Source of the DNA: Lutimonas zeaxanthinifaciens
GTDB lineage: Bacteria > Bacteroidota > Bacteroidia > Flavobacteriales > Flavobacteriaceae
Length of the DNA stretch: 64,000 nt
Direction of reading: 5' to 3'
Assembly (NCBI RefSeq): GCF_030503675.1
Contig: NZ_CP129964.1
Location: forward strand, 124,001-188,000
Of the stretch, positions 8,412-31,976 are shown piece after piece; the stretch's first letter is position 1; each line of letters opens with the position of its first letter. The notes beneath the pieces are model-generated. The model did no database searches and was not told where the DNA came from. It worked only from the letters and a program-made list of their open reading frames with translations. The position numbers and the translations under genes were made by a program.

Positions 8412-10595
8412 ATGAAACAGTTAACTGTAATTTTCATGATGTGCCTTTCTACCGTATTAATGGCACAGGAAAAAAGTATTTTAAAAGACACTATTGATTT
8501 AGATGAAGTGCTGGTCAAGGCCACTCGAGTTGATGAGAAAGCCCCTTTTGTCAGGAGTAATGTTAGTAAAGAAGAGATTGAATCGAGAAATCTCGGTCAG
8601 GACATACCGGTTTTGTTGAATTTTCTTCCCAATGTTGTTTCGACGTCTGATGCCGGGAATGGAATTGGTTATACAGGTATTCGGGTCAGGGGGAGTGATG
8701 CAACAAGGGTTAATGTAACAATCAACGGTATCCCGTTGAACGATAGTGAGTCCCATGGGGTTTTTTGGGTAAACCTTCCAGATTTTGCAACTTCAACACA
8801 GAGTATGCAGCTTCAAAGAGGTGTAGGTTCTTCCACAAATGGAGCAGGTGCTTTTGGGGCGAGCTTGAGTTTATCGACCAATGGAATCAGAGATGATTCC
8901 TACGGCGAAGTCGGTTTTTCAGGAGGTTCTTATAATACCCTTAAGGCTAATGTCCAGTTTGGATCAGGTATTATCGGCGCAGAAGGAAAATGGCAATCTG
9001 AGTTTACTGGCAGGGTATCCACAATTCAATCTGACGGTTATATTGACAGAGCCACTTCAGATCTCAGATCCATCTATCTGTCAGCAAGTTTCTTTAATGA
9101 AAATACTTTGGTCAAGGCTATAGCCTTTGGAGGCCATGAAATAACCTATCAGGCCTGGTATGGAATTGATCAGGAAACCCTAGAGACCAACAGGAAATAC
9201 AATCCGGCCGGGGAAATTTATGATGAAAATGGAGAATTGGTTGGATTTTATGACAATCAGGTAGATAATTATAAACAAGACCATTATCAGTTGCATATCA
9301 ACCATGACTTCGGTAATAACTGGACAGGGAACCTTGCCTTTCATTACACCTATGGAAGAGGTTTTTATGAGCAATATGAAAATGATGCGGACTTTTCAGT
9401 TTATGGATTTGACCCGATAAATGTGGATGGTGAGGAAATAAGTTCTACAGATCTGGTGCAGCGCAAGTGGCTTGACAATGATTTTTATGGAACAACTTTC
9501 TCGGTTCTGAAGAATTTTGAAAACGTCAATGTTATCATAGGGGGAGCATTCAATCAATACGATGGAGACCATTTTGGGGAGGTGAAATGGGCTAAATATG
9601 GCAGTGAGATGATCAACCAGCGGTTTTACGACAATACGGGTAAAAAGTCAGATTTCAATATGTATGCCAAAGCAGATTATACTTTAAACGATAGTTGGAG
9701 CCTGTTTGGTGATTTACAGTATCGCTATGTAGATTATACGGTAGAAGGAATTGATGAGGGTCCTGTAGGAATTTCTATAAACGATCAGAATAATTTTTTC
9801 AACCCTAAATTTGGTGTAAGTTATTTCCTTGACCGAAGCAATTTCTTTTTGTCTTATGCAAAAGGGAACAAGGAACCCAAAAGAGCCGATTATTTAGCTA
9901 ACCCTGACGTAAAACCTGAATCATTGGATGATTTTGAACTGGGCTGGAATTACGATGCCGATAATTTCAGGCTTAGAACAAATATCTATTATATGAATTA
10001 TATAGATCAGCTGGTTCTAACGGGAAATATTGATGACGTGGGAAACCCTATTGCGGACAACATTGGAAAAAGTTACAGGCTTGGACTCGAAGTTGATGCG
10101 GTCTTCAGGATTAATGAAAAACTGACCTGGCAACCCAATCTGGCCCTAAGTACGAACAAGAATATTGACAAGTATTATGAATTTGATGGAGAACTGGTGA
10201 ATTTTGGAAATACCGAACTTTCCTTTTCACCAAGTGTTATTGCAGGAAGCAACATTAGATTTGAGCCTTTCGAGAACCTTCAGTTTAGTTTACTTTCGAA
10301 GTACGTTGGGGAGCAATACATGAGCAATATAGAACTTGAGGACTCTAAGCTTGATGCGTATTTTGTAAATGATTTTCAAATGAGTTATGAAATCAGTACC
10401 AATAAATTATTTAAATCGATCGTTTTCAGCGGCCTGGTGAACAACCTATTTAACGTGAAATACGTTTCCAACGGCTATTTTTACACCTATGATGACACCT
10501 GGTCGGACCCTGATAAAGTCACAACATTAACGGGAGCCGGGTATTATCCGCAGGCAGAAATCAATTTTCTTTTAGGGGTTAATTTAAGGTTCTAG
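8412..10595 (+). CDS. TonB-dependent outer-membrane receptor under TPP riboswitch control (thiamine uptake candidate)
   Basis: 727 residues. Signal peptide 1-19 (ending MAQ). The plug domain (about 25-155) includes GIRVRGSDATRVNVTINGIPL and the Ser/Gly-rich GVGSSTNGAGAFG. A 22-strand barrel follows, ending in a terminal phenylalanine (GVNLRF). The protein lacks the N-terminal carboxypeptidase-like repeat common in SusC receptors. Control by a TPP riboswitch points to import of thiamine or a precursor across the outer membrane; this type of receptor is known in Bacteroidota thiamine regulons (OMR1). The inner-membrane partner is probably the PnuT-like transporter upstream. Ligand identity is inferred from regulation. 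Confidence 0.9.
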   Translation: MKQLTVIFMMCLSTVLMAQEKSILKDTIDLDEVLVKATRVDEKAPFVRSNVSKEEIESRNLGQDIPVLLNFLPNVVSTSDAGNGIGYTGIRVRGSDATRVNVTINGIPLNDSESHGVFWVNLPDFATSTQSMQLQRGVGSSTNGAGAFGASLSLSTNGIRDDSYGEVGFSGGSYNTLKANVQFGSGIIGAEGKWQSEFTGRVSTIQSDGYIDRATSDLRSIYLSASFFNENTLVKAIAFGGHEITYQAWYGIDQETLETNRKYNPAGEIYDENGELVGFYDNQVDNYKQDHYQLHINHDFGNNWTGNLAFHYTYGRGFYEQYENDADFSVYGFDPINVDGEEISSTDLVQRKWLDNDFYGTTFSVLKNFENVNVIIGGAFNQYDGDHFGEVKWAKYGSEMINQRFYDNTGKKSDFNMYAKADYTLNDSWSLFGDLQYRYVDYTVEGIDEGPVGISINDQNNFFNPKFGVSYFLDRSNFFLSYAKGNKEPKRADYLANPDVKPESLDDFELGWNYDADNFRLRTNIYYMNYIDQLVLTGNIDDVGNPIADNIGKSYRLGLEVDAVFRINEKLTWQPNLALSTNKNIDKYYEFDGELVNFGNTELSFSPSVIAGSNIRFEPFENLQFSLLSKYVGEQYMSNIELEDSKLDAYFVNDFQMSYEISTNKLFKSIVFSGLVNNLFNVKYVSNGYFYTYDDTWSDPDKVTTLTGAGYYPQAEINFLLGVNLRF

Positions 10596-11250: not shown

Positions 11251-11649
11251 TCATTTAACCGTTTTAAAACCTTCTTGTTCCCACTGAAGGATTCCTCCAT
11301 CAAGGTCATAAACACTTTTGAAACCCATGTCTTTCATTTTTTGAGCTGCATTGCTGCTCCGACCACCTTTTTTACAATAAACATAGACAGGTTGGGAGCG
11401 ATCCAGTACTTCGATTTGTTCCTGAAAATTATCGGCATAAAAGTCAATATTCACTGCGTTTTCAATATGTCCTGAGGCATATTCCTCAGGAGTTCTTACA
11501 TCAATCAGCAAGATATCTTTATTGGCCTGGTTCAATTCGGCCGGGGTGATCAGGGTATCGTTACTCCCTTTTTTCTGCTCACATGATACAAAAAGTACAG
11601 AAGAGACTAAAAGAAATAAGAGGGTTGATTTAAAGGCTTTCATATTCAT
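11251..11649 (-). CDS. Rhodanese-domain lipoprotein
   Basis: 132 residues. N-terminal signal with lipobox LFVSC (Cys23), so exported and lipid-anchored. Single rhodanese domain: IDVRTPEEYASGHI near 49-62 and the active loop with Cys92 in YCKKGGRS. The catalytic cysteine would carry a persulfide and pass sulfane sulfur. The start could also be ATG three codons in. It follows the terminator of the persulfide dioxygenase gene, so it has its own transcription start. With the DUF3365 cytochrome it forms a small periplasm-facing sulfur module. Confidence 0.88.
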   Translation of the reverse strand: MNMKAFKSTLLFLLVSSVLFVSCEQKKGSNDTLITPAELNQANKDILLIDVRTPEEYASGHIENAVNIDFYADNFQEQIEVLDRSQPVYVYCKKGGRSSNAAQKMKDMGFKSVYDLDGGILQWEQEGFKTVK

Positions 11650-11728: not shown

Positions 11729-13153
11729 TTACAATAATGTCGTTGGACATACGTATTCTGTCATTGGTGCTTCAGTTTCCTTTAAGTCCTTGAATCCACC
11801 TCTTACATCAGTTACCTTTTCAACGCCATTGGCCTTGAAAATTGAAGCAGCAACTAAAGACCGATATCCACTGGCACAATGCAGAAAGTATTCCTTTTCA
11901 GTATCTATTTCTGAGAAATTATCATGAATAAAATCGAGTGGAAAATTCTCTACCCCCACAACGTGTTCTGATAAATATTCTGATTCTTTACGCACATCTA
12001 CTGGCTTTTCCATTTCACCTTTGGCGAGTTTCTCTGCAAAAAGATGAGCAGAAATAGAACCTATTGTGTCTACTTTGAAACCATGACTTTTCCAGTTTGC
12101 GATACCGCCTTCCAAATATCCAAGAGTATTATCATAACCTACTCTTGAGAATCTTGTTACAATTTCATTTACCCTGTTTTCACTATCTGCAATAAAAATA
12201 ATCTTTTGGTTAATGTCTTTGATAAGGGCTCCAACCCAAGGAGCGAAACTACCATCAATTCCAATGTACCAGGCACCCGGAACCGTTCCTTCCTCAGCAT
12301 ATAATTCTTTACTACGCGTATCCACAACCAGAATATCTTTTTGTTCACTCATCTCTTTAAATGACGCCGCGTCAATAGGCGTTGTCCCTTTATGAAGAAT
12401 GTCTTCAATACTTGTATTGATCGTTTTGTTCATTCTCACATTATTCGGAAAATACTGAGGTGGTGGTTTTAGACCAGTTGTTACCTCATCAATAAATTCC
12501 TCTTTTGTCATGTCTGCTCGAAGCGCATAATTGGTTTTCTTCTGATTTCCCAGGGTGTCAAAGGTCTCACTACTCATATTCTTACCACATGCCGAACCAG
12601 CGCCATGATTTGGATAGATTATGATATCATCCGGTAGCGTCATAATTTTATTTCGCAGTGAATCATACAAGAAACCGGCTAGATCTTTTTCCGTCAGTTT
12701 ACCTTGTTTAACAGCTAAATCAGGTCTTCCCACATCCCCGATGAACAAGCAATCACCTGTACATACATAGGGCGTGTTTCCTTCTCCGTCAGTAATAAGG
12801 TAAGAGGAAGATTCCATAGTGTGACCAGGAGTGTGCAAAAGTGTTATTTTACCTTCCCCAAGAGGAAATTCCTCGCCATCCTTTGCATTGTATATATCGT
12901 ATTCTGCAGTCGCATTTGGACCAAAAATGATTTTTGCACCCGTTTTTTGAGCCAGGTCATATTGTCCGGAAACAAAATCCGCATGAAAATGAGTTAAGAA
13001 CACATATTTTATTTTCGCATTATCAGCTTCCGCCATTCTTAAATAAGGTTCAGTTTCTCTTAGTGGATCAATGATTGCAGCCTCTCCATTGGACTCAATA
13101 TAGTAGGCCATTTCAGCAAGACATCCTGTAAATAATTGTTCAACTTTCATCAT
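11729..13153 (-). CDS. Persulfide-dioxygenase-like metallo-beta-lactamase fused to two rhodanese domains
   Basis: 474 residues, cytosolic. Metallo-beta-lactamase domain (about 1-245): HFHADF at 55-60, PGHT with His111, TGDCLF with Asp134, PNHGAG with His183, as in ETHE1-type persulfide dioxygenases that turn glutathione or other persulfides into sulfite. First rhodanese (about 255-360) has Ala-Asp-Ser where the active cysteine should be, so it is inactive. Second rhodanese (about 375-460) keeps Cys426 in LHCASGYRS. Control: a GTAAC-N4-GTTAC palindrome and -7 box lie upstream (13173-13215). It is 79 bases downstream of sulP1 and has its own terminator. Substrate inferred from family. Confidence 0.9.
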   Translation of the reverse strand: MMKVEQLFTGCLAEMAYYIESNGEAAIIDPLRETEPYLRMAEADNAKIKYVFLTHFHADFVSGQYDLAQKTGAKIIFGPNATAEYDIYNAKDGEEFPLGEGKITLLHTPGHTMESSSYLITDGEGNTPYVCTGDCLFIGDVGRPDLAVKQGKLTEKDLAGFLYDSLRNKIMTLPDDIIIYPNHGAGSACGKNMSSETFDTLGNQKKTNYALRADMTKEEFIDEVTTGLKPPPQYFPNNVRMNKTINTSIEDILHKGTTPIDAASFKEMSEQKDILVVDTRSKELYAEEGTVPGAWYIGIDGSFAPWVGALIKDINQKIIFIADSENRVNEIVTRFSRVGYDNTLGYLEGGIANWKSHGFKVDTIGSISAHLFAEKLAKGEMEKPVDVRKESEYLSEHVVGVENFPLDFIHDNFSEIDTEKEYFLHCASGYRSLVAASIFKANGVEKVTDVRGGFKDLKETEAPMTEYVCPTTLL

Positions 13154-13172: not shown

Positions 13173-13215
13173 CAAAGTTAAGCAAAGGAATATTATCATA
13201 TGTAACACTTGTTAC
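13173..13215 (-). promoter_or_regulatory. Operator site A plus -7 box for the persulfide dioxygenase gene
   Basis: Palindrome GTAAC-ACTT-GTTAC at 13202-13215 (centre 13208.5). The minus-strand -7 box TAACTTTG (TAnnTTTG) is at 13173-13180. Distance from palindrome centre to the upstream end of the box is 28.5 bases, giving an operator near -40 relative to transcription start. The ATG is 20 bases past the box. The 5-4-5 geometry matches Crp/Fnr-family sites. Confidence 0.72.
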
Positions 13216-18003: not shown

Positions 18004-20895
18004 TTATTTTTCATCATCTTTTACATAGTAAGTAGATTCATCGGGTTTAAAAGCTCTTTTGAACCACAGAGGCCTTCTTAGACCATCGGGACCCGGAGCA
18101 GGCCTGGTCATCGACAACCACTCTTTATAAACCTCATGGGATTTATTGGTATCAACAAATATATCACCGTAGTTGTCATCCGGGCCGGGTTTTTCTATCC
18201 TTACCCTTTGATGCCAGGTATGCATTCCACTTATTGGATCCGGATGCACTGCATGGGTTATATTCTGATGGACTCCACCGTCTTTCCAAAAGATTCTCTT
18301 TGAATCCTTATCATCAGAATCAAAAGGTTTGATACCTCTCTTTGTAGTCATTTTCCATTTTCCATTTTCAGCGTTTTGAATGTCAACAGTATTCGTTGCC
18401 CATCGGTTTCCTATGGCATCCTGTTCTCGACGCCATCTTCCGATATGATGAGAACAGGCCACAACTCCGGGTTTCATTGACTGTGTAACCCAAACCTTAT
18501 CTACAAAGTAACCAATGTCAGTATTCATTTTTACCAGATCACCGGTTTTAAAATTCCATCTTGCCGCATCATCAGGGTGCATCCAGATGGGGTTTCTATT
18601 GGAAATTTCAACCAGCCATTTCGCGTTTCCTGACCTGGAATGAATCAGGGTAGGTAAACGGAAGGTTGGTACCAAAACATATTCACCTTTTGATTTATCA
18701 AGCACCTCATTATGAATGTGACTTTTTATGTATTGCGGAATGGCGTACTCCGGCCAGTTCCAGTCTACCATGGTCTGAGAATAAAATTCATTTTTACGTG
18801 ATGGTGTGGGAAAACCAACCATAGCTTTATCCTTTATCATCACCCCAATATCTTTTCCGTTCTTGCGGATGACCCCTGTGTTTTTATCAACAACAGCATC
18901 TTTGAGCTGCGCTTTAGTTAATAAGGTTTCGTTCTTTTTATAGGATTCTCCTTTTTCAATTTCAAAAGCACCGTATTTTGTCATGTACTGGAATTCTGTG
19001 AGCCCCTCTTTTTTGGCAGCTTCAGGCAATCCTTTGACGCGCTCAAAAATATACTGGTAATATTCTTCAATTGTTATTTTCTTACCGGGTCGATAAGGCG
19101 ATTCAAAATGTTTTCTAATGCCCATACTACCGTCAGGATCTATGCGCCAGCTCAATTCGATCCAGAATTCATCTTCTTCCCATACTTCTCCGGGATTGGC
19201 TTCATAAGTATATTCAACCGGTGAACCGTTTCGGCGTGCAGCTTCCCTTAAAACGGGTTGTCTGAACGCAACCCAGGTTCCTCCATGAGTAGCATAGGAA
19301 TTGATATCATGCCTTTCGGAGGCAAGGCCCATCGGTAAGACGAGATCTGCAAAAAATGCAGTTTCATTCCATGTAGGCGTCAAGGCAGTATGAAGCCCAA
19401 ATTTTGATTCGTCCATAAACATTTCCATCCAGGTAAATCCGTCCGGATAGGTCCAGACCGGATTAAACACTCGTGAAAAATAGACATCCATTTTCCCTCT
19501 TCCTTCCTTTAGAAAGTGAGGAAGTAACTGACTCATTTCAAAAAATGCCAGAGGATATTCTTTGGGAAAGTGCAATTCATTCCATTTTTTCTGTGGTTTT
19601 GGAGGATTCGGAACTTCGGGTTTAAATTTATTCCATGAATTAGGAGAAGTTCCTCCTTTTGCTCCAACGGCGCCTGTTAGTACCGTTAGAAAATGAAGAC
19701 ATCTTGCAACAGCCCAGCCTCCAAGGTTGGAGGCACCTGCACTTCTCCAGTTATGACTTGCAAAACGTTCTCCTGCTTCACCAATTTTAACGGCTATTTC
19801 CCTGATCATTTCCGCTTTGACACCGGACTCTTTTTCTGCGAATTCAGGTGTAAATTCCTTGTATTCTTCTTTCATTGCTTCGATGAAATTCTCAAAGACA
19901 AGCTTTTTATCCGGGTGTTTGGCCTTTAAATACGATTCCCAGTTGGTCCAGTTTTCAAGATACTCCCTGTTGTAAAGATCTTCCTGTAGAATAATAAGTG
20001 CCATTGCCAGTAAAACTGCAGCTTCAGTTCCCGGATAGGAAGGAAGCCAATAGTCACTCATCGAGGCTGTATTTGACAATCTGGGGTCCATTGTGGCGAG
20101 TTTTGCACCTTTCATTTTTCCCTCAATGATCCTTTGAGCATGAGGATTAAAATAATGTCCGGATTCTAGATGTGCTGAGATTAACAGTATAAATTTTGCT
20201 TCAGCATGATCCGGTGATGGCCTGTCATAACCATACCATATATTATAACCAAAGCGAGCTCCTGAAGAGCAAATATTCGTATGAGAATTATGACCGTCAA
20301 TGCCCCATGAGGGTAAAACCCAGTTCATAAACCCTTCGTGTCCCGGCCTTCCAACGTGATAGGCGATTTCATTATGTCGCTCTTCTTTTAATGCTTTTCT
20401 GATACGTTCTGCGATTGTATCCAGCGCTTCGTCCCAGGAAATTCTTTCCCATTCCCCATCGCCTCTTTTACCCTTTCTTTTCAAAGGAAAAAGTATTCTG
20501 TCAGGATCCGTGATCTGATTAATCGTTGCCGGCCCTTTTGCACAGTTTCTGCCCCTGCTTCCAGGGTGATATGGATTGCCTTCGAACTTTTTAACTTCTC
20601 CCGAAGACTTATCGATAAAAGCCGTTAGCCCACAGGCACTTTCACAGTTGAAACAAGTAGTGGGAACAATTTGATAATCTGTTCTTTTCTTTTTAGGCCA
20701 AACTTTGGGATCATACTCAGTCCAGTTATCCCATTTTTCCGGAGGTGGAAAATTCTCGTACATAGCAGCAACTTCGTCATCACTGAAATGACGCATGTCT
20801 TGATCGTGTTTTTGATAACCTTCTTTGTGAAGATCCGGAATAAGACCAATTTTTTCTGCCAGATTTTCTATAAAAGATGCCTTCTTATAGCCCAT
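18004..20895 (-). CDS. Molybdopterin oxidoreductase, catalytic subunit (SoeA/PsrA-like, cytoplasmic)
   Basis: 963 residues of the DMSO-reductase superfamily. N-terminal [4Fe-4S] ligands Cys81, Cys84, Cys88 and Cys118 (CFNCESAC ... GRNCAKG). Candidate molybdenum ligand Cys209 in NICSSGAR. The molybdopterin-dinucleotide-binding C-terminal domain (about 740-900) is complete. There is no twin-arginine signal, so the active site faces the cytoplasm, as in the sulfite-oxidising SoeABC enzymes and unlike periplasmic PsrA, PhsA or TtrA. It lies 54 bases downstream of the fused FeS-NrfD subunit and next to SulP, persulfide dioxygenase and cofactor genes. Sulfite oxidation is the favoured role; polysulfide or thiosulfate chemistry remains possible. 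Confidence 0.88.
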   Translation of the reverse strand: MGYKKASFIENLAEKIGLIPDLHKEGYQKHDQDMRHFSDDEVAAMYENFPPPEKWDNWTEYDPKVWPKKKRTDYQIVPTTCFNCESACGLTAFIDKSSGEVKKFEGNPYHPGSRGRNCAKGPATINQITDPDRILFPLKRKGKRGDGEWERISWDEALDTIAERIRKALKEERHNEIAYHVGRPGHEGFMNWVLPSWGIDGHNSHTNICSSGARFGYNIWYGYDRPSPDHAEAKFILLISAHLESGHYFNPHAQRIIEGKMKGAKLATMDPRLSNTASMSDYWLPSYPGTEAAVLLAMALIILQEDLYNREYLENWTNWESYLKAKHPDKKLVFENFIEAMKEEYKEFTPEFAEKESGVKAEMIREIAVKIGEAGERFASHNWRSAGASNLGGWAVARCLHFLTVLTGAVGAKGGTSPNSWNKFKPEVPNPPKPQKKWNELHFPKEYPLAFFEMSQLLPHFLKEGRGKMDVYFSRVFNPVWTYPDGFTWMEMFMDESKFGLHTALTPTWNETAFFADLVLPMGLASERHDINSYATHGGTWVAFRQPVLREAARRNGSPVEYTYEANPGEVWEEDEFWIELSWRIDPDGSMGIRKHFESPYRPGKKITIEEYYQYIFERVKGLPEAAKKEGLTEFQYMTKYGAFEIEKGESYKKNETLLTKAQLKDAVVDKNTGVIRKNGKDIGVMIKDKAMVGFPTPSRKNEFYSQTMVDWNWPEYAIPQYIKSHIHNEVLDKSKGEYVLVPTFRLPTLIHSRSGNAKWLVEISNRNPIWMHPDDAARWNFKTGDLVKMNTDIGYFVDKVWVTQSMKPGVVACSHHIGRWRREQDAIGNRWATNTVDIQNAENGKWKMTTKRGIKPFDSDDKDSKRIFWKDGGVHQNITHAVHPDPISGMHTWHQRVRIEKPGPDDNYGDIFVDTNKSHEVYKEWLSMTRPAPGPDGLRRPLWFKRAFKPDESTYYVKDDEK

Positions 20896-20949
20896 GTTTT
20901 TAGTTTAAAAGGGTTAAAATACTTCTATCTACAGTTACTATGAGTTCAT

Positions 20950-22566
20950 TTAAGCAAGAGGTATTCGCTGAGGTGCCTCCACCCATATTTTTTCAGTAAT
21001 ATAAATCCCAATCAGGATTAAAGCTCCTGCAACTGCAAGAGTTAATGTTCCCGGTACAAAGATGATCAACATCAGTGGTGCTATATTTCCGATAAGAACC
21101 GTTCCAATCCAGAACAGGCCTCGGTATTGTTCTTTTAGAATCATAGTCACAACCTTTTTTGCGGCCTTTGTTGGATGCGTAATTGTAAGTTCGCTTACCA
21201 GTGTCAACAGATTGATCACCAAAGAAACCGCTATTACAGTACCAAGCATTTCCATCCAGATTTCAGGTTGTAAGACCACTGCAAGTATCGCGAAAACGGC
21301 TGCCCCTGCCAGAACACTATGAACCAGCATGTGAATTGGAAGGGTTGGACTTTGCCAAAAATCTCTACCTTTTGCCTGAGCGAAAAGGAAGGCAGTATAA
21401 ATGGCTAAAATCACACCAAAGACTGCTGTAAGCCCCAAAATAAAGAATTCGGGAATGCTCCATTCAAAATAAGTAGCTGCACCCCAGATGGTCATCAGCA
21501 ATCCAAAAACGGAAATGGTATAACCACCTTTTACCAGCCAGGAATTCCATTGCGGACGTAATAGAACATTCAGAAATCTATCCGGACGATCTAAATCCAT
21601 CACAAGAAACAATCCGGTCAACCCGAGAAATCCAAGTGAAAGCCCTACGGAAACCAGCTTTGTGGTAAAAGATAACTCATAACCGAAAATCACTGCCAGT
21701 AGTGGGATCAAAAAGGCCCCTGCGGCGATGGCTTTTGTGGTTACGTAAGCAGATACCTCCCAACCCCAGAGAATTCCTTTGTCGGGTGTATCGTAAACAC
21801 GTCTGGCTTTTCCGTTGAGTACGTCAATGTAATTAGGATTTTTGGTTTCCTTTTTCTGATATGCAGCCTGAAGATCATTGTCAATACTCATTTGCAACAG
21901 GTTTATATCATCATTAGTATGCATTAGTTTTTCAGCGGCTTTAGCGTAGTGACCAACTCCCCTTGCCTGAGAATTCCATAGACCAGGACCTGATTTTGCT
22001 GTTGTATCCGGATCAAGAGACTGGTAATCACCGTTGATGTAAAACAAGTTAGGATTAGTTCCCTTTTCGGGTTTTCTTACCATTACCTGTTCTCTTGCAA
22101 GAAGCGTTGCAATCTCAGTATGTGGATTCTCCATATCACCTGCAATAATAGCGTGTTCCGGGCATACATCTACACAGGCCGGTGCTCTGCCCACCTCCAC
22201 TCTGTGTGCACAATAGTTGCATTTGGCTGCTGTTTTATTGTCAGGGTCAATGTACAGGGCATCATAAGGACATGCCTGCATACATGATTTACATCCTATA
22301 CATCGATTATTGTCAAAATCTACGATTCCATCTTCTCTTGTATAAAGTGCCTCGACAGGGCAGATCTCCACGCAAGGTGCATCAGCGCAATGGTTACATC
22401 GCATGACAGAAAAAATTCTTCTGGTATTCGGGAATACTCCTTTTTCAACTTGTTTTACATAGGTTCTGTTAACCCCTATGGGCACATCGTGCTCACTTTT
22501 ACAGGCAGTGGTGCACGCATGACAACCGATACATTTTCTGTTGTCAATAATAAATCCGTATTTCAT
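20950..22566 (-). CDS. Fused four-cluster ferredoxin and NrfD-type membrane subunit
   Basis: 538 residues. Residues 1-140 bind four [4Fe-4S] clusters through sixteen cysteines (12, 15, 18, 22; 57, 60, 65, 69; 89, 92, 95, 99; 116, 119, 131, 135). A linker to about 255 is followed by about eight membrane helices of the NrfD/PsrC family, including the LDRPDRFLNVLLRPQWNSW segment. In most complexes these are two proteins (B and C); here they are one. It would carry electrons between the cytoplasmic molybdoenzyme (next gene) and the quinone pool. First gene of the sulfur operon, with operator site B and a perfect -7 box upstream. Confidence 0.92.
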   Translation of the reverse strand: MKYGFIIDNRKCIGCHACTTACKSEHDVPIGVNRTYVKQVEKGVFPNTRRIFSVMRCNHCADAPCVEICPVEALYTREDGIVDFDNNRCIGCKSCMQACPYDALYIDPDNKTAAKCNYCAHRVEVGRAPACVDVCPEHAIIAGDMENPHTEIATLLAREQVMVRKPEKGTNPNLFYINGDYQSLDPDTTAKSGPGLWNSQARGVGHYAKAAEKLMHTNDDINLLQMSIDNDLQAAYQKKETKNPNYIDVLNGKARRVYDTPDKGILWGWEVSAYVTTKAIAAGAFLIPLLAVIFGYELSFTTKLVSVGLSLGFLGLTGLFLVMDLDRPDRFLNVLLRPQWNSWLVKGGYTISVFGLLMTIWGAATYFEWSIPEFFILGLTAVFGVILAIYTAFLFAQAKGRDFWQSPTLPIHMLVHSVLAGAAVFAILAVVLQPEIWMEMLGTVIAVSLVINLLTLVSELTITHPTKAAKKVVTMILKEQYRGLFWIGTVLIGNIAPLMLIIFVPGTLTLAVAGALILIGIYITEKIWVEAPQRIPLA

Positions 22567-22660: not shown

Positions 22661-22712
22661 CAAATTTAGTGAAAAGCCTCGGTTGGGTTGTAACATTAGT
22701 TACTTAAGTTAC
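22661..22712 (-). promoter_or_regulatory. Operator site B plus -7 box for the FeS-NrfD/molybdoenzyme operon
   Basis: Palindrome GTAAC-ATTA-GTTAC at 22690-22703 (centre 22696.5). An extra GTTAC half-site lies at 22708-22712. Minus-strand -7 box TAAATTTG at 22661-22668, again 28.5 bases from the palindrome centre. The 5' leader to ATG 22566 would be about 88 bases. A further half-site GTTAC (22655-22659) overlaps the start region. The site lies between divergent operons, so it could also affect moaDE. Confidence 0.75.
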
Positions 22713-25300: not shown

Positions 25301-26386
25301 TTATTGGAACTTGTCAATGCCGCCTTTCAGACTTAAGACTTTCATGTCAGGGAATTCTTTTTTTATACGTTTAGTTACTGAATAACTAGAGATACCTTTA
25401 TGACAGACCACAACAACATCATAATTTTGAAAAGACTCTAACTTTTCCGCATCAAATTTTTTTAAAGGCATTCTCAGGTCCACCTTAAACGGATGATTTA
25501 CCTCATCGTTTTCAATTACCGAGATTATTTTTAATTTTTCTGTGGATAGTCTTTCTTTCAATTCAAAGCCTTCAATTAACAGTGACCTTTCCTGGGATTC
25601 ACAAGCCGGGTCAAAATAGGATTGGTAATCATAGAAGGATTTGATTTTTGATTTTGAAAAACCGGGGTTGAGGTTCATTTTGTATTGTGAATTTTCAAGT
25701 GTATTGTAAATGAGAATACCGTTGATTAGAGGCTCTCCTAATCCTGTCACAATTTTAATGACTTCATTGGCCTGCATGATACCAATCATTCCCACAATTG
25801 GATTTAGGGTTCCTATCTCAGAACAATTGGGGACATGGTTTTTTGGCATTTCAGGAAAAGCATCTCTCAAATTCGATGTACGAACGTTTTCAATTTCCAA
25901 ATTGAATACGCCTACATATCCGTCATGCTTGTATAAAGAACCATAAACCAATACCTTGTCATAAAGCACACAGTAGTCGTTTAAAAGATATTTAGTCGAT
26001 AAACTATCTGTACAATCAATTATTAGAGGGAATTCAGATAATTTTGAATGAATTGTTTCTTTAGTCAAGGCCAGATTCCCGATACTGGTTTTTACAAAAG
26101 GATTTAAAGAAGAAATATGATCTGACAACACTTTAGCCTTACTTTCTCCAACCTGGTCAAAACGGTAAAAAACCTGACGATGAAGGTTACTTTGATCAAT
26201 TAGATCGTAATCAATAAGATGAATATGCCCGATTCCGCTTCCTGCAAGATATACGGCAGCAGCACTTCCCAATCCACCACAACCAATAACAGCGATTTTG
26301 GCCGAATTCAAACGTTCCTGGCCCTTTTGGCCTAATTCAGGCAAGGTAGTTTGTCGGATAAACATATTCTTTTTGAGATCTTTCAT
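25301..26386 (-). CDS. moeB: MoeB/ThiF-type adenylyltransferase with C-terminal rhodanese
   Basis: 361 residues. Residues 1-250: ThiF/HesA E1-like fold with nucleotide-binding GCGGLGSAAAVYLAGSGIG (about 35-53) and DCTDSLSTKYLLND. It would adenylate the MoaD C-terminus. Residues about 270-361: rhodanese-like domain whose candidate active cysteine is in VVVCHKGISS, suited to deliver the sulfur, as in MOCS3/Uba4. The paired CxxC zinc motifs of typical MoeB are not visible. Part of a minus-strand operon: moaA, moeA, moaC, mobA, moeB. It lies 10 bases downstream of mobA. Confidence 0.88.
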   Translation of the reverse strand: MKDLKKNMFIRQTTLPELGQKGQERLNSAKIAVIGCGGLGSAAAVYLAGSGIGHIHLIDYDLIDQSNLHRQVFYRFDQVGESKAKVLSDHISSLNPFVKTSIGNLALTKETIHSKLSEFPLIIDCTDSLSTKYLLNDYCVLYDKVLVYGSLYKHDGYVGVFNLEIENVRTSNLRDAFPEMPKNHVPNCSEIGTLNPIVGMIGIMQANEVIKIVTGLGEPLINGILIYNTLENSQYKMNLNPGFSKSKIKSFYDYQSYFDPACESQERSLLIEGFELKERLSTEKLKIISVIENDEVNHPFKVDLRMPLKKFDAEKLESFQNYDVVVVCHKGISSYSVTKRIKKEFPDMKVLSLKGGIDKFQ

Positions 26387-26396
26387 GGTCTCAGGC

Positions 26397-27512
26397 TTAT
26401 TTTTCTAAACTTTTTTTAACCACGGAAAACTCCTCAGGAGTATTTACGTTTACAATGTAATCATCATCGACTTCAACAATTTTTACATCTGAATTGATCA
26501 GAACTTTTCGAGGACATGATATCCCCATGGCCATGAAATGTAACATGAGCGGATAGGCCCTTGGTTCCCAAATCGTGATCAGAGGCTCTGGAAAACGCTT
26601 GTTTTTCCCTTTTAGGGCGGTGGCAACCTTGCTTGGATCTCTTTGATCAATCAAATTCCGTATCAATTTTTCATCAGCATAAGGCAGGTCAGTTGCCAAT
26701 ACGAGCCAGGCGTTATTTGGATTATACTGAAAAGCTGAACAAATTGCTCCAAAAGGACCAAGTCCAATGAATTTATCTTCAATAAGGTTGTCCTGATTGA
26801 TCTGTTGCTCCTTTCTGACCGACATATATGACTTCAAATTGAGTTTCTCAAGCATTTCTATTGAATACAAGCGCTGTGACTTGCCGAAATAATCTAAAAG
26901 ACCCTTGTCTTTTCCCATCCGTTCACTTTTACCACCCGCAAGCACTAAACCATGTAGCGGAGCAATATTCTGTTGAATCAATTTCTCAACATGTAAACTA
27001 ATATTTTCCAGATCATGAATGGAATAGGTTTTCAATTTTTCAATATCCTGGTGTTTGTCTTTTAGAAAATCAAAAATCCTGGAATTGTGATTTAAATTGA
27101 TAAGGAAGGCAATGTCATTGATCTGATCCAATCTTTTTAAGATGGAGGCCTCTTTATCCGGATCAAGTATCAATATTTGTTTATTGCCGGGATAATGATT
27201 TCCGTTTATAAAAACCAAGTCATAGTTTGAGAATAACAATTTATCCGTGTAGGGGTTTTTTTCAAAGTCAGAATTTGAACTGAGATTTCCGGAGGAATGA
27301 AAAACAAATTCATCAAAAACCGGTGCCTCCAGATTTTTATCATGAGAGGCATCTGCATAGGCTACTTTAAAATTCGAATTTATCCTTGAAGAAACTTCTC
27401 TTACAAGCTCTTTGATCAAAGAACATTTTGTGCCAAGAATAGCGAGTTCAAAGGAACCAATCTCTCCAGTTTTTCGTCGAGTGAGCTTTGCGTGTTTTCG
27501 ATGATTCTTCAT
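26397..27512 (-). CDS. mobA: MobA-like molybdenum cofactor nucleotidyltransferase with MobB-like N-terminus
   Basis: 371 residues, nearly twice the usual MobA. C-terminal half (about 185-371) is the nucleotidyltransferase: LAGGKSERMGKDKG at 191-204 and LVLATDLPYADE, consistent with attaching GMP (or CMP) to the cofactor. N-terminal half (about 20-180) has the layout of a MobB-type P-loop domain, but the loop reads GTKCSLIKEL (27-36) and lacks the GKT core, so it is probably not an ATPase. It overlaps moaC by 4 bases (ATGA) and precedes moeB by 10. The enzyme in the island belongs to the DMSO-reductase family, which needs the dinucleotide cofactor this makes. Confidence 0.85.
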   Translation of the reverse strand: MKNHRKHAKLTRRKTGEIGSFELAILGTKCSLIKELVREVSSRINSNFKVAYADASHDKNLEAPVFDEFVFHSSGNLSSNSDFEKNPYTDKLLFSNYDLVFINGNHYPGNKQILILDPDKEASILKRLDQINDIAFLINLNHNSRIFDFLKDKHQDIEKLKTYSIHDLENISLHVEKLIQQNIAPLHGLVLAGGKSERMGKDKGLLDYFGKSQRLYSIEMLEKLNLKSYMSVRKEQQINQDNLIEDKFIGLGPFGAICSAFQYNPNNAWLVLATDLPYADEKLIRNLIDQRDPSKVATALKGKNKRFPEPLITIWEPRAYPLMLHFMAMGISCPRKVLINSDVKIVEVDDDYIVNVNTPEEFSVVKKSLEK

Positions 27513-27982
27513 AGACCTATATCAGATTTACCTCCTCTTTTTTCGAGAAGTTTTACTTCCTTAATGATCATTTTCTGAGAGATAGCTTTGCACATATCAT
27601 ATACGGTCAGGGCAGAAACGCTGGCTCCTGTCAGAGCTTCCATTTCTACACCGGTTTTACCCTCCATTTCCACGGTGCAAAGAATTTTGAGCTCCTCTTT
27701 ATTAATGATTTCAATATCAATTTTGATTCCATCAAGGGGTAAAGGGTGACACATAGGAATCAGATCGGCTGTTTTCTTAACAGCCTGAATTCCGGCAATA
27801 ACAGCTGTTTGAAAAACCGGCCCTTTTTTGGTTTGGATCTCATCGTCGGTAAGGAGACTAATGATGTCTGTCCCTAAATACATCAAAGCCTGCGCCGAAG
27901 CCATTCGTTTGGTAATTTTTTTTGCACTAACATTTACCATTTTCGGTTTATTGTCCTTATCAATATGTGAAAATTTACTCAA
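27509..27982 (-). CDS. moaC: Cyclic pyranopterin monophosphate synthase MoaC
   Basis: 157 residues, standard. With MoaA it forms cPMP from GTP, the first step of molybdenum cofactor synthesis. Signature regions: MCHPLPLDGIKID and the GKTGVEMEALTGASV loop, followed by YDMCKAISQKMII. Starts 11 bases after moeA and overlaps mobA by 4 bases, so it is inside one tight operon. Confidence 0.96.
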   Translation of the reverse strand: MSKFSHIDKDNKPKMVNVSAKKITKRMASAQALMYLGTDIISLLTDDEIQTKKGPVFQTAVIAGIQAVKKTADLIPMCHPLPLDGIKIDIEIINKEELKILCTVEMEGKTGVEMEALTGASVSALTVYDMCKAISQKMIIKEVKLLEKRGGKSDIGL

Positions 27983-27993
27983 AGTATCTCTTT

Positions 27994-29205
27994 TTAGTAT
28001 TTATATGGAATAATTGGAAATATTTCTCCTTTTTTAAAGGATTCTCTCCCGGCTGGTAACTCCAAAAATGCATCGTTCAAGGTTAGGTTGGCAAGGTCTC
28101 CGGATCCATTTCCAACTTCTGGATTCGCCAAAAGGCTACCCTTATCATTTGTGATTTTGACTTGCAGGAAATAGGTTAACTCCGGCCGAAAGGAAAAATC
28201 ATCCGCTAAAACGGCATAGTTGTTATTATCAAAATCAAGACCTTGACTCTTCAGAAACCAGGGTATGAAGTATTTCAAACAACTTACAAAAGTTGACACC
28301 GGATTTCCCGGAAATGCAAAGATGGTGGCTTTGTTTTTTTTACCAAACCAAAAAGGTTTACCGGGCCTCTGCCTGACTTTGTGAAAATATTTTTCAACTC
28401 CCAATTCATCAAGTACCTCAGGCAAAAAATCAAATTTACCTTTGCTTACTGCACCACTGAACATCAGTACGTCAAATACTTTCAATAAATTAGCTATTTG
28501 AGATTTTAATAGGATTTTATCATCTGTTATGTGAAAAATAGATGTTTCCAGATTTTCATTTTGTAATAAGGCTGAAAGGGTATGCACATTGCTTTTCCTT
28601 ATTTGGTAGGGTTCCGGGATTTGATCAACGTTTACTAATTCATCTCCTGTTGAAATAATTGCAATTTTCGGGTTTCTCGCCACTTTTACCTTATCTTTTC
28701 CTACGGTAGCCAATACTCCAATTTCGGCAGATGAAATTTTTGTATTTATGGGTATTAATTCTTCTCCCTGTTTGTTGTCTAATCCTTTCTTATGGATATT
28801 CTGGAAGTGTTTTACATCTTCAATATTTACCTTGGCAATGTCATTTTCTATTGTGATAAGCTCATACGGAATTACTGCATCAGTGCCAAGTGGTAACATG
28901 GCACCAGTCATAGCTTCAAGACAGTTGAATTCGTTTTGTAAACTTAACTGTTTACTCCCGGCTGCCTGAACATTTTCTATTGGAAATTCTCTTTGTCCCG
29001 AATCAAATGCTTTAGAGCTTATTGCAATACCATCCATGCTTACCCGATCAAAAGGGGGAAGGTCCCTATCTGCCTTTATTGATTCTTTCAGGACCCTTCC
29101 TAAAGAATTGTTGAAATGAATTTCTTCCACGCCAAAATCTTCAGTCTGCCCAAGCACGATCTTGAGGGCTTCTTCGACGGGAATAAAGGATATTTTTTTA
29201 TTCAT
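27994..29205 (-). CDS. moeA: Molybdopterin molybdenumtransferase MoeA
   Basis: 403 residues, standard. It inserts molybdenum into adenylated molybdopterin. Motifs: DRDLPPFDRVSMDGIA in the N-terminal part, MTGAMLPLGTDAVIPYE, the central STGDEL and SGAVSKGKFD, and FAFPGNPVSTFVS. It follows moaA by 6 bases and precedes moaC by 11, same strand. The separate MogA adenylyltransferase is not in the window. Confidence 0.95.
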   Translation of the reverse strand: MNKKISFIPVEEALKIVLGQTEDFGVEEIHFNNSLGRVLKESIKADRDLPPFDRVSMDGIAISSKAFDSGQREFPIENVQAAGSKQLSLQNEFNCLEAMTGAMLPLGTDAVIPYELITIENDIAKVNIEDVKHFQNIHKKGLDNKQGEELIPINTKISSAEIGVLATVGKDKVKVARNPKIAIISTGDELVNVDQIPEPYQIRKSNVHTLSALLQNENLETSIFHITDDKILLKSQIANLLKVFDVLMFSGAVSKGKFDFLPEVLDELGVEKYFHKVRQRPGKPFWFGKKNKATIFAFPGNPVSTFVSCLKYFIPWFLKSQGLDFDNNNYAVLADDFSFRPELTYFLQVKITNDKGSLLANPEVGNGSGDLANLTLNDAFLELPAGRESFKKGEIFPIIPYKY

Positions 29206-29211
29206 AGTTTA

Positions 29212-30204
29212 TTATCCTCCAATAGTTGACATACTTTCAGAAACATTATTACCTTTTCTATTCGCTTCTGCCACAAAACCATTTTCAGGTTTCTTTTGAA
29301 CGGTCGAAATAAAAAGATTCTTAAGGTCTTCATCGGACGCTCCCTTTCGTAAAAAATCTTTTAGGTTAAAAACTCCGTCGTCAAACAAGCAATTTTTGAA
29401 CAGGCCTGTAGCGGTAATTCTTATTCTGTTGCAATCGTTACAGATACTTCGTGTAAATGCGGGAATAATGCCAAAGGACCCCTTATAAGTTTCAATTTTG
29501 AAATTCCTGGAAGTTGAAGAAGGATTAGATTTCAGAGGTTGGATACTTTGATAATCTGATTTGATGTGATCTAGAATTTTTGTAAAATCCCAAAGTTCAT
29601 CCACTTTCCTTATCCCTTTACCGTTAAAAGGCATTTCCTCTATAAACCGGACTGAAACCGTATTATTCTTCGTAAGCTCGACAAAATCAATAATTTCATT
29701 TGTATTCACTCCGGATTGCACAACTACATTAAGCTTTAAATTTACCTTGCTCCTCAACAGATCCTCAAAAGTTTGTTTCACTTTATCAAAAACATCCCGA
29801 CGCGTAATCTGGAAAAACTTTTCCCTGTTTAAACTGTCAATACTCAAATTAACCGATTTGACATTAATTTTTTCAAGCCGATCTATATAATTTGATATCA
29901 GTGCCCCATTTGTAGTGATGTTGATTTCCTTTAATTTATCATTGAAGGATAGGGACTCCAGAAAATTAATAAAATCTTTTCGCACAAAGGGTTCTCCCCC
30001 GGTTAACCGTACCTTGTCTACGCCAAGCTCACTTAAAACCCGGGTAATTCGATACATTTCTTTGTAGGTCAATAATTCTTTGCGGTCAACAATATCGATA
30101 CCCTTTGCAGGCATGCAGTATTGACATCGTAGATTACACCTGTCTGTCACAGCTAACCTCAGATAAGTTATTTTTCGTCCGTATTGATCAATTAATTGAT
30201 TCAT
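29212..30204 (-). CDS. moaA: GTP 3',8-cyclase MoaA (radical SAM)
   Basis: 330 residues. Radical SAM cluster Cys23, Cys27, Cys30 (CNLRCQYC), LTGGEPFVRKD for SAM binding, and a second C-terminal [4Fe-4S] site with CNDCNRIRIT and a later Cys. The C-terminal Gly-Gly (SMSTIGG) needed for activity is present. First gene of the minus-strand cofactor operon; the terminator of the YeeE pair (30236-30256) lies just upstream, so it starts its own transcript. Confidence 0.97.
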   Translation of the reverse strand: MNQLIDQYGRKITYLRLAVTDRCNLRCQYCMPAKGIDIVDRKELLTYKEMYRITRVLSELGVDKVRLTGGEPFVRKDFINFLESLSFNDKLKEINITTNGALISNYIDRLEKINVKSVNLSIDSLNREKFFQITRRDVFDKVKQTFEDLLRSKVNLKLNVVVQSGVNTNEIIDFVELTKNNTVSVRFIEEMPFNGKGIRKVDELWDFTKILDHIKSDYQSIQPLKSNPSSTSRNFKIETYKGSFGIIPAFTRSICNDCNRIRITATGLFKNCLFDDGVFNLKDFLRKGASDEDLKNLFISTVQKKPENGFVAEANRKGNNVSESMSTIGG

Positions 30205-30292: not shown

Positions 30293-30706
30293 TTAGTGAG
30301 GAAGACGGTGTTTTAAGGCATGGTAAAGAAATGCCCCAAGATGTGCACCGAAAAGTACAACCAGGATAGAAATCACACCTTTTCCTACAAGAATGTACAT
30401 AGGTCCGGGGCATGCACCACCCAAGGCCCAACCCAATCCGAAAATAATTCCTCCCAACAGGTTTCTTGAAATACCTTTTTTCTTTGGCTCAACTGTTATA
30501 GGATTTCCATAAAGGGATTTAATCGACTCTTTTTTAAACAAGTAGATCAACACGATACCTATGGCCACGGCTGATCCAATCACCCCATACATATGAAAAG
30601 ACTGTAGTTTGAACATTTCATAAATTCGGAACCATGAAATAACTTCAGCCTTGCTCAGGGTAATTCCGAATAAAATTCCTACCAACAAATATTTAATAAA
30701 TTTCAT
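30293..30706 (-). CDS. YeeE/YedE (DUF6691) family membrane protein, small half
   Basis: 137 residues with about four membrane helices. Contains the family cysteine motif GGACPGP near the last third. The family includes TsuA, which imports thiosulfate through a pathway lined with cysteines. It lies 10 bases downstream of the larger half (30717-31274) on the same strand. Neither half alone has the length of full TsuA (about 330-350), so the two presumably assemble into one transporter. Its substrate in this island is likely thiosulfate or another sulfane compound (inference). Confidence 0.88.
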   Translation of the reverse strand: MKFIKYLLVGILFGITLSKAEVISWFRIYEMFKLQSFHMYGVIGSAVAIGIVLIYLFKKESIKSLYGNPITVEPKKKGISRNLLGGIIFGLGWALGGACPGPMYILVGKGVISILVVLFGAHLGAFLYHALKHRLPH

Positions 30707-30716
30707 CTTGTCCAGT

Positions 30717-31274
30717 TTAAAAAATGTAAGGTAAAATTAGCCAGGTCATGATCAAACCTCCTATAAAAAATCCTCCCACAGCAATGAAGGACTCCATGGA
30801 GAGACTGCTTAAACCTACGATTCCATGTCCTGAGGTACATCCTCCAGCATATCTTGATCCAAATCCCACCAGAATACCGGCAACAATCAAGATCAGGAAT
30901 CCTTTGACGGTTAACAAGGCATCCAAACTAAATATTTCATCAGGCAGGTAAGTTGATCCGGCATTTTGAATTCCAATTTCAGATAGCGCAACTACCGTGT
31001 CCGGATTTAATGCTACGGTATCATCTGGGGTAAGCCATTGATCTGCTATAAAACCGCCAAAGATAAGTCCGACAACAAAGGTCAGGTTCCACCAATTTTT
31101 TTTCCAGTCGAACCTAAAGAAATCGACAAATTTCCCGGCTCCTCCCATTGCACATACACTTTCGAGATTTGAAGAAACACCAAATTTCTTCCCGAAAAAG
31201 AACATCAGAAACATACAAAATGCGATGATGGGACCAGCTACATACCATGGCCATGGTTGTAAAATAAAATCCAT
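30717..31274 (-). CDS. YeeE/YedE family membrane protein, large half
   Basis: 185 residues, about five membrane helices. Key motif GSRYAGGCTSGHGI near residues 135-150 carries the conserved cysteine of thiosulfate transporters, with GGFFIGG after it. First gene of a two-gene unit whose promoter holds operator site C (31295-31337), and the Crp/Fnr gene ends just beyond. The shared operator with the persulfide dioxygenase and molybdoenzyme promoters ties this importer to the sulfur pathway. Confidence 0.88.
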   Translation of the reverse strand: MDFILQPWPWYVAGPIIAFCMFLMFFFGKKFGVSSNLESVCAMGGAGKFVDFFRFDWKKNWWNLTFVVGLIFGGFIADQWLTPDDTVALNPDTVVALSEIGIQNAGSTYLPDEIFSLDALLTVKGFLILIVAGILVGFGSRYAGGCTSGHGIVGLSSLSMESFIAVGGFFIGGLIMTWLILPYIF

Positions 31275-31294: not shown

Positions 31295-31337
31295 TAAAAA
31301 TATATTTTTCAGTACTGTTACAGGTAACAAATGTTAC
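31295..31337 (-). promoter_or_regulatory. Operator site C plus -7-like box for the YeeE pair
   Basis: Palindrome GTAAC-AAAT-GTTAC at 31324-31337 (centre 31330.5), with an extra GTTAC half-site at 31317-31321. The minus-strand box TATTTTTA (one base off TAnnTTTG) is at 31295-31302, 28.5 bases from the palindrome centre. The gene start is 56 bases from the centre, nearly the same as at site A (55). The site ends 4 bases from the crp/fnr stop codon. Confidence 0.72.
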
Positions 31338-31340
31338 ATT

Positions 31341-31976
31341 CTAAAAATCCAGCACTTCTATTTTATTTCGAAACAATTTGATTCTACCCTCATTTTCAAG
31401 CTGTTTAAGCAGCCTGGAAACTACAACCCTGGAAGTATTCAGATCTACAGCAATTTCCTGATGAGTCGTAGTCAATTCGGTACTTCTCATAATCTGAACT
31501 TTATCGACAAGATACTTGAACAGACGTTCGTCCATTTTCAAAAATGCCAAGGTGTCAATGGCTTCCAGCATTTCGTTTAGACGTATATCATAGCTGTCAA
31601 TTACAAAACTTCTCCATGAAGCGTATTTAACCATCCATTCTTCCAGCTTTTCTACCGGTATAAAAATCAATTCAGAATCTTTTTCTGCAACTCCCCTTAC
31701 TTTACTTTTATGACTTTGAAGGCCACTGCCAAAGGTTATTGTACAAGTATCTCCACGTTCCAAAAAATAAAGTACAATTTCCTCCCCTTTTTTGGTTTCT
31801 CTGCTGATCTTGATCGCTCCTGTAAGAATTAAAGGAATCTGATGAAAGGTGTCACCTATATCGAGAAGTAAATCATTTTCCTTGACCTTTTTGTAGGTTC
31901 CGACTTTCGCTATTTCATCCAATAATTCCGGTTCGAAAACCACATTGTAATATTCTTCCAGTTTCTCTCTGATCAT
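31341..31976 (-). CDS. Crp/Fnr-family transcriptional regulator of the sulfur island
   Basis: 211 residues. Cyclic-nucleotide-like beta-roll (about 1-120), a long dimer helix (about 120-150), and a winged helix-turn-helix (about 168-205). The recognition helix TSRVVVSRLLKQL (181-193) keeps the Arg and Ser-Arg of Fnr/Crp but has Val where they use a base-reading Glu, in line with an unusual half-site. There are no N-terminal cluster cysteines; the only cysteine is Cys78 in GDTCTITF. It is transcribed towards the YeeE pair, whose operator lies 4 bases past its stop. It probably binds the GTAAC-N4-GTTAC sites (inference). Confidence 0.9.
   Translation of the reverse strand: MIREKLEEYYNVVFEPELLDEIAKVGTYKKVKENDLLLDIGDTFHQIPLILTGAIKISRETKKGEEIVLYFLERGDTCTITFGSGLQSHKSKVRGVAEKDSELIFIPVEKLEEWMVKYASWRSFVIDSYDIRLNEMLEAIDTLAFLKMDERLFKYLVDKVQIMRSTELTTTHQEIAVDLNTSRVVVSRLLKQLENEGRIKLFRNKIEVLDF

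Follow-up and report, generated by a model that had tools for sequence, protein, structure and literature searches.

We have found that a CRP/FNR-family regulator of Lutimonas zeaxanthinifaciens appears to activate the sulfur-oxidation genes that adjoin it through the palindrome GTAAC-N4-GTTAC (GTAACNNNNGTTAC). The gene lies in a stretch of 64,000 nucleotides (contig NZ_CP129964.1, positions 124,001 to 188,000; hereafter the window). We estimate at about 0.55 the probability that the protein would serve as a local activator of a sulfur-oxidation regulon and be switched by reactive sulfane sulfur at its only cysteine, Cys78, a reading built on comparisons of sequence. The regulator, its predicted sites and the neighbouring genes are as follows (positions in the window).

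31341..31976, minus strand: CRP/FNR-family regulator, 211 aa (ORF and translation, Pfam, AlphaFold2 model)
31743..31745, minus strand: codon of Cys78, the sole cysteine (sequence read; kept in 116/117 family rows)
31398..31436, minus strand: recognition helix TSRVVVSRLLKQL, residues 181-193 (alignment to CRP and NtcA)
31425-31427, minus strand: codon of Val184 (Val184 pairs with GTAAC, Glu184 with GTGAC)
31324..31337, no strand: predicted operator GTAACAAATGTTAC, exact motif, between the regulator and transporter genes
31295..31302, minus strand: -7-like box TATTTTTA, facing the transporter gene, one mismatch to TAnnTTTG
22690..22703, no strand: predicted operator GTAACATTAGTTAC, with box TAAATTTG at 22661-22668; composite with 0 mismatches
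13202..13215, no strand: predicted operator GTAACACTTGTTAC, with box TAACTTTG at 13173-13180; composite with 0 mismatches
30717..31274, minus strand: YeeE/TsuA-type sulfur-compound transporter, half 1 (Pfam Sulf_transp)
30293..30706, minus strand: DUF6691/YeeE-type transporter, half 2 (Pfam DUF6691 and Sulf_transp)
25301..30204, minus strand: Mo-cofactor genes moaA, moeA, moaC and mobAB and a ThiF/MoeB-type gene (ORFs)
20950-22566, minus strand: FeS/NrfD protein (Pfam Fer4_11, NrfD)
18004-20895, minus strand: molybdopterin oxidoreductase (Pfam Molybdopterin, Molydop_binding)
11729..13153, minus strand: metallo-beta-lactamase fold protein with two rhodanese stretches (Pfam Lactamase_B, Rhodanese twice)
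11251..11649, minus strand: small rhodanese, the next gene after 11729..13153 (ORF and translation, named by eye)

A CRP/FNR-family regulator with valine in its recognition helix

The regulator has both parts of a CRP/FNR superfamily member, a cNMP-type beta-roll and a C-terminal Crp helix-turn-helix (Pfam PF00027 cNMP_binding, E=3.4e-9, and PF13545 HTH_Crp_2, E=1.3e-10; both over cut-off), and its nearest named homologue, from Lutimonas saemankumensis, is 99% identical. An AlphaFold2 model of the single chain, for which 37 family members were the input, has a mean pLDDT of 90.4; the block with the lowest pLDDT, residues 81-90 (66), lies immediately C-terminal to Cys78, which itself immediately precedes helix 80-87. 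With matches that differ by no more than 1 Z taken as tied, the model resembles Pseudomonas aeruginosa Vfr (2oz6, Z 22.6) and Escherichia coli CRP (3ryp, Z 22.1; about 195 residues each), an uncharacterised Crp/Fnr protein of Eubacterium rectale (3dv8, Z 21.8 over 206 residues) and NtcA (2xkp, Z 20.3 over 184 residues). The Eubacterium protein is also the closest solved sequence (E=1e-16; profile 1.8e-42) and has a cysteine at the place of Cys78, but its helix is of the Arg-Glu type.

An earlier note on this DNA had claimed that valine replaces the glutamate, Glu181 in CRP, with which Crp and Fnr read the half-site, and profile alignments bear this out: R183, V184 and R188 of the regulator lie opposite R180, E181 and R185 of CRP, and the same residues face the stretch Arg-Val-Thr-Val-Thr-Arg of NtcA. 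The regulator shares with CRP and Vfr the overall fold and the two arginines, and differs from them in the valine and in its GTAAC-N4 site, as against TGTGA-N6. The valine is real but not confined to this protein: 72 of 117 sampled family members share it. The note left unsaid that the gene is read on the minus strand, as well as the promoter spacing of an activator type and the existence of a paralogue with an identical helix type (both described below). An Arg-Val-x-Val-x-Arg helix is the likeness to NtcA, which is the best NCBIfam match; orthology with NtcA is rejected on score all the same (TIGR03697, 52.5 bits against a cut-off of 244.95), as is orthology with the cAMP receptor CRP (NCBIfam CRP, 46 bits against 266). 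The note was right that Fnr cluster ligands are absent, since one cysteine in 211 residues, against the four ligands of a [4Fe-4S] cluster, rules out FNR-type cluster sensing, and right to place that cysteine, Cys78, in the sensor domain, where its context is GDTCTITF.

Among Crp-type helix-turn-helix proteins of the same genome (8 matches, 5 over the Pfam cut-off; 19 loci from Crp searches), the Arg-Val helix occurs within those five only in the window regulator and in a paralogue that is 54% identical to it (genome 2311685-2312311). The paralogue has the helix TSRVVVTRLL, Cys78, a GTAAC site with one mismatch at its own start and rhodanese genes nearby. We note that its locus (L048) has rhodanese-like genes upstream and, about 2 kb past the paralogue, a protein resembling sulfide:quinone reductase (8860-10098, named by eye), and is a second sulfur locus in this genome.

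Predicted operators in the window and the genome

The GTAAC motif named in the earlier note is present as three exact copies of GTAAC-N4-GTTAC in the window, at 13202, 22690 and 31324, where base composition predicts 0.07 and 300 dinucleotide shuffles gave a mean of 0.02 and a maximum of 1. Each site faces one or more sulfur genes: respectively a gene of the persulfide-dioxygenase type, a molybdenum oxidoreductase, and the thiosulfate-type transporter with the Mo-cofactor genes. At all three, the minus strand has a box resembling TAnnTTTG, which we take to be the Bacteroidota -7 element; the box is 28 bases away from the centre of the operator and faces the sulfur genes. On the transporter side the box has one mismatch, and the composite match spans 31295-31337. 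The position of the operator GTAACAAATGTTAC is repeated in six Lutimonas-type loci (L206-L210 and L212).

The sulfur enzymes of the window are named by family, and their substrates are putative. The two transporter halves and the Mo-cofactor genes, all on one strand, are probably one operon; the match of half 1 to NCBIfam TsuA is weak (26.6 bits against a cut-off of 400), and the MoaA, MobA and ThiF families support three of the five Mo-cofactor genes, with moeA and moaC named by eye from their translations. The FeS/NrfD protein and the molybdopterin oxidoreductase (18004..22566) are probably of the SoeABC/PsrABC type and would act on a sulfur compound, putatively sulfite, and the product of 11729..13153 may be a persulfide dioxygenase. 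Two SulP-like transporters are also encoded further downstream of the regulator on the same strand. At 22699-22712 a one-mismatch copy, GTTACTTAAGTTAC, overlaps the exact site at 22690 and may be an operator that serves the divergent MoaD/MoaE genes. An additional GTTAC half-site adjoins the operator at 31324 (31317-31321); it is absent from L206-L210 and so is probably a chance occurrence.

Taken across all 3.53 Mb of the genome, the bare motif shows no enrichment (10 exact copies, 4.1 expected, 14 for the reversed control), and it is therefore the placement of the window sites, not their count, that stands out. Four of the ten copies recur at steps of 1,644 bases within a long repeat (L047: 2832, 4476, 6120 and 7764) and are unlikely to be operators. 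In L046 an exact GTAAC site (6008-6021) lies between a fasciclin-type/cytochrome-like gene pair on the minus strand and an Rrf2 regulator on the plus strand, without an evident -7 box at the usual distance, and a further exact site lies about 650 bases upstream of a 2-oxoacid oxidoreductase-like gene, beside a likely terminator (L045, 6002-6015).

The composite of operator and TAnnTTTG is found without mismatch at only two places in the genome, both of them window sites. Three more matches have one mismatch, among them the third window site and a match upstream of a rhodanese. At up to two mismatches, composite matches do not exceed controls genome-wide (9 against 11; 6 against 12), and several one-mismatch matches fall within ORFs or precede genes without a link to sulfur. 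From these matches we retain as a candidate target the rhodanese at genome 608395, more weakly a TolC homologue at 2077147 (one mismatch; 45% and 43% identical to the site-adjacent TolC of L059 and L116), and, also weakly, a thioredoxin at 422384 (two mismatches). Composite matches inside ORFs (L195, L197, L199, L200 and L205) were dropped, and L201 and L204 were dropped from the regulon list.

Valine is paired with GTAAC and glutamate with GTGAC

Homologues with a match at E <=0.001 were found in 107 of 120 genomes in a family search and in 171 of 296 in a phylum search; loci are stretches of up to 12.6 kb around homologues (two are slightly longer), and those analysed are selections from the matches. 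In an unbiased scan of 5-base palindromes with gaps of 0-12, GTAAC with a gap of 4 far outnumbers every other palindrome in the 35 close Val loci (40 sites in 23 loci, 0.48 expected); GCACC with a gap of 7 has a higher ratio of observed to expected but only 4 sites. In 14 loci with a Glu regulator the palindrome that comes first is GTGAC, likewise with a gap of 4 (8 sites in 8 loci, fewer than 0.05 expected). Among loci holding a single type of regulator, a count that excludes four loci with Val and Glu regulators together, GTAAC lies within 3 kb in 36/68 Val and 0/40 Glu loci (Fisher p 5e-10), and GTGAC in 0/68 and 10/40 (Fisher p 2e-5), both p values being uncorrected for relatedness. Where both types share a locus (four loci, 8 rows), GTAAC lies close to every row, and GTGAC accompanies the Glu regulator of L122 and that of L134.

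The tree requires five changes between Val and Glu, and as many when restricted to well-supported branches. At least three separate parts of the tree hold Val with GTAAC (the main clade, L134_8605 and L155/L156/L160), and several hold Glu with GTGAC (L133, L141, L122_10155 and the clade around L084-L099). This pairing across relatives indicates that the link between protein and motif, which the earlier note had drawn, exceeds mere proximity.

The pairing is incomplete in that an exact GTAAC site within 3 kb is absent from 32 of the 68 Val rows. Two of the loci that lack an exact site, L052 and L053, whose regulators are 74% and 70% identical to that of the window, yet retain the transporter-Moa synteny, and a one-mismatch site at the correct box spacing is present in 6 of the 29 Val loci where no exact copy occurs. 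Among distant Val homologues, neither motif is present in the four loci of a first sample, and GTAAC is present in a few loci of a second (L155, L156 and L160). In a further 80 loci from named genomes, which overlap partly in organisms with the other sample, all 80 helices read TSRVV(V/I)SR, and there are 71 GTAAC sites in 45 loci, against 2 for the reversed control and 2 for GTGAC.

Box spacing suggests activation

Counting both strands of each site, about half of which cannot face a promoter, we found a distance of exactly 29 bases between the site centre and the start of TAnnTTTG for 34 of 125 site-strands and of 28 bases for 3, with at most 1 at any other distance. The spacing recurs in the named-genome loci, where of 142 site-strands 35 have 29 bases and 5 have 28, and Glu relatives repeat it at their GTGAC sites (8 of 26 with 29 bases, one with 30). 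A fixed spacing of 28-29 bases to the box would place the centre of the regulator dimer near -41, the position of a class II activator (centred about 41.5 bases before the start), with the start predicted from the box consensus. Sites of NtcA are described as centred near -41.5 in the available part of PMC3898017.

Cys78 and the neighbourhood of the family

Cys78 is conserved among homologues, a point on which the earlier note had let its proposal of a sensing cysteine depend: 116 of 117 family rows have it, and it is recognised in 79 of the 80 named-genome loci, where the remaining match begins too late for the pattern. None of 23 other Crp/Fnr proteins from this phylum has it. As expected of a thiol-based sensor of reactive sulfur, the window protein has a conserved cysteine in the sensor domain, and it has this one only. 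Additional cysteines at 84 (63/117) and 85 (64/117) do not occur in it. Of the covariation with GTAAC that the note had proposed to look for in Val and Cys78, only the part concerning Val stands; covariation of Cys78 with Val is rejected, as Glu/GTGAC relatives have the cysteine too, including some without a detected neighbouring sulfur gene. Cys78 is therefore a trait of the family, tied neither to Val nor to GTAAC. The lone exception is a serine in the second, Glu-type regulator of L054, whose gene lies directly downstream of the transporter halves (1947-2579; helix VSREAISRTLK); we note that it is a natural Cys-less test case.

Genes for persulfide dioxygenase, the transporter or the molybdoenzyme lie within 4.5 kb of 39/72 Val and 11/44 Glu regulators (together 50/116), a lower bound in that TauE (L060, L077), OsmC and small rhodaneses were outside the query set. 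The same genes are near none of 23 other Crp/Fnr loci, 20 of them chosen from weak matches plus three more. As judged by predicted sites and neighbours, the genes would make up a sulfide/persulfide-oxidation regulon. Of five TolC-type genes near family members, four are directly preceded by a GTAAC site (L059, L075, L116 and L117). Similar target genes, RND pumps included, are reported for sulfane-sulfur-responsive ArsR regulators of Hyphomicrobium and relatives in the available part of PMC12423496.

We also note that in 10 of 12 Glu-type loci a small gene resembling the YgaP membrane domain (one confirmed by Pfam, the others by eye) lies downstream of the regulator. It follows the Glu/GTGAC regulator by about 40-165 bases in L049, L084, L086, L089, L092, L094, L096, L097, L099 and L122 (10155), and in most of these loci the operator overlaps or trails the regulator stop codon.

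A proposed mechanism and its alternatives

The regulator, with Arg183, Val184 and Arg188 at the base-reading positions of CRP, would bind GTAAC-N4-GTTAC, the site with which its family is paired, and when reduced sulfur is present would turn on the persulfide dioxygenase, the molybdenum oxidoreductase (probably for sulfite) and the sulfur-compound importer with the Mo-cofactor genes; further targets may be a rhodanese encoded at another place in the genome and, probably, an operon for RND efflux. A sulfur regulon together with a near-invariant cysteine at the ligand-binding place makes reactive sulfur the likeliest signal and Cys78 a plausible candidate for its sensor. We infer that reactive sulfane sulfur (persulfide, polysulfide or perhaps a species derived from thiosulfate) would modify Cys78, which lies at the foot of the cyclic-nucleotide-binding fold, and stabilise the form that binds DNA. 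Cys78 might then carry a persulfide or a mixed polysulfide, or a polysulfide might bridge the subunits; with a single cysteine in each subunit, no bridge within a subunit could form. Such an activator would be turned on by reactive sulfur, the opposite of SqrR and CstR, which are released from DNA.

It is possible, though in our judgement unlikely, that the same activator controls the same regulon in response to a small molecule, such as a sulfur oxyanion or a nucleotide, held in the beta-roll pocket, with Cys78 in a structural or pocket-shaping role. The fold is like that of CRP, and the near-invariant cysteine occupies the position of the phosphate-binding cassette, the element that binds cAMP in CRP; moreover, Cys78 is spread more widely (Val and Glu members and the Firmicute protein 3dv8) than the sulfur gene set, and one cysteine is fewer than known sulfur sensors use. 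Arguing against such a pocket, the cAMP contacts Glu72 and Arg82 of CRP face T81 and S91, small polar residues, in the profile alignment, and a buried structural cysteine often becomes serine, alanine or valine, which is hardly seen here. Cys78 could instead be a ligand of haem or another metal, and the signal would then be a gas, sulfide or the redox state. The haem thiolate of CooA, Cys75, has a similar place in the fold, CooA structures (2hkx, 2fmy) are among the profile matches, and HcpR binds haem; we nevertheless give this little credence, as there is no conserved histidine at positions 79-93 following Cys78 and neither CXXCH nor an FNR-type cysteine set in the regulator.

We think it improbable, too, that the protein is a general sensor of oxidants (peroxide, hypochlorite or nitrosative stress) and controls sulfur genes only incidentally. 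A single conserved cysteine would fit sulfenic-acid chemistry, and thioredoxin and OsmC-type genes occur near some relatives, but the neighbours that recur are persulfide dioxygenase, transporter halves, rhodanese and TauE, a list that agrees with the ArsR targets given in the available part of PMC12423496, and they would favour reactive sulfur over general oxidants as the signal. Lastly, the 54%-identical paralogue, with its helix of the same type, its Cys78, its nearby rhodaneses and the one-mismatch site at its own start, might be the main reader of the window sites and leave the window regulator redundant. This we regard as very unlikely indeed: in the closest relatives the site directly follows the gene of the window-type regulator, as would fit a local regulator. 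We thus prefer a local activator switched by reactive sulfur at Cys78; its action on DNA through GTAAC-N4-GTTAC is the strong part of this reading, and sensing at Cys78 the more tentative one.

Relation to known regulators

The rule that position 181 selects a base is already known, being stated for HcpR2 and its relatives in the available part of Rodionov et al. 2005 (PMC1274295), and NtcA offers a parallel. As described there, HcpR2 has the predicted motif GTAACnnnnGTTAC, identical to that of our regulator, and in both proteins Glu181 is replaced and the FNR cysteine motif is lacking. HcpR2 differs in having proline at 181, where the window regulator has Val184, and in a predicted regulon that is mostly hcp (nitrosative stress) rather than sulfur oxidation. 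The NtcA consensus, GTAN8TAC in the part of PMC3898017 available, shares the outer GTA with the window site, but its inner half-site is not fixed as AC, and NtcA controls nitrogen genes and senses 2-oxoglutarate.

The known sensors of reactive sulfur, namely SqrR/BigR and sHdrR/SoxR (ArsR type), CstR (CsoR type) and FisR, have folds different from that of the window regulator, and their targets (pdo, rhodanese, TauE, YeeE-type transporters and RND pumps) largely match the predicted regulon. As far as the source texts available describe them, SqrR, BigR, sHdrR, SoxR and CstR are repressors and FisR is an activator, with two sensing cysteines in SqrR and CstR and three in FisR. Our regulator, with one cysteine and the spacing of a class II activator, would thus stand apart from proteins that have at least two and are mostly repressors. 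We found no CRP/FNR sulfur sensor of this kind described in the literature, a weakly supported negative in that the slash in the spelling probably limits matching.

We extend the proposal to the family with more reserve, as somewhat less likely than not: a phylum-wide branch of Bacteroidota CRP/FNR proteins may be thiol-based sensors of reactive sulfur that use one invariant cysteine and act as class II activators, in which a repeated switch between Glu and Val separates the operators of paralogues. Independently of what is sensed, a rule of one residue and one base pair that has switched repeatedly among paralogues makes operators predictable from sequence. If Cys78 is the sensor, the CRP/FNR fold would gain a branch, common in Bacteroidota, that senses sulfur, and a protein with a single cysteine would simplify testing how persulfidation alone switches a regulator. 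If the wider proposal is true, this branch would take in Bacteroidota the part played elsewhere by SqrR/BigR, CstR and FisR, and the separation of GTGAC from GTAAC would allow two regulators in one cell to read different sulfur signals or gene sets.
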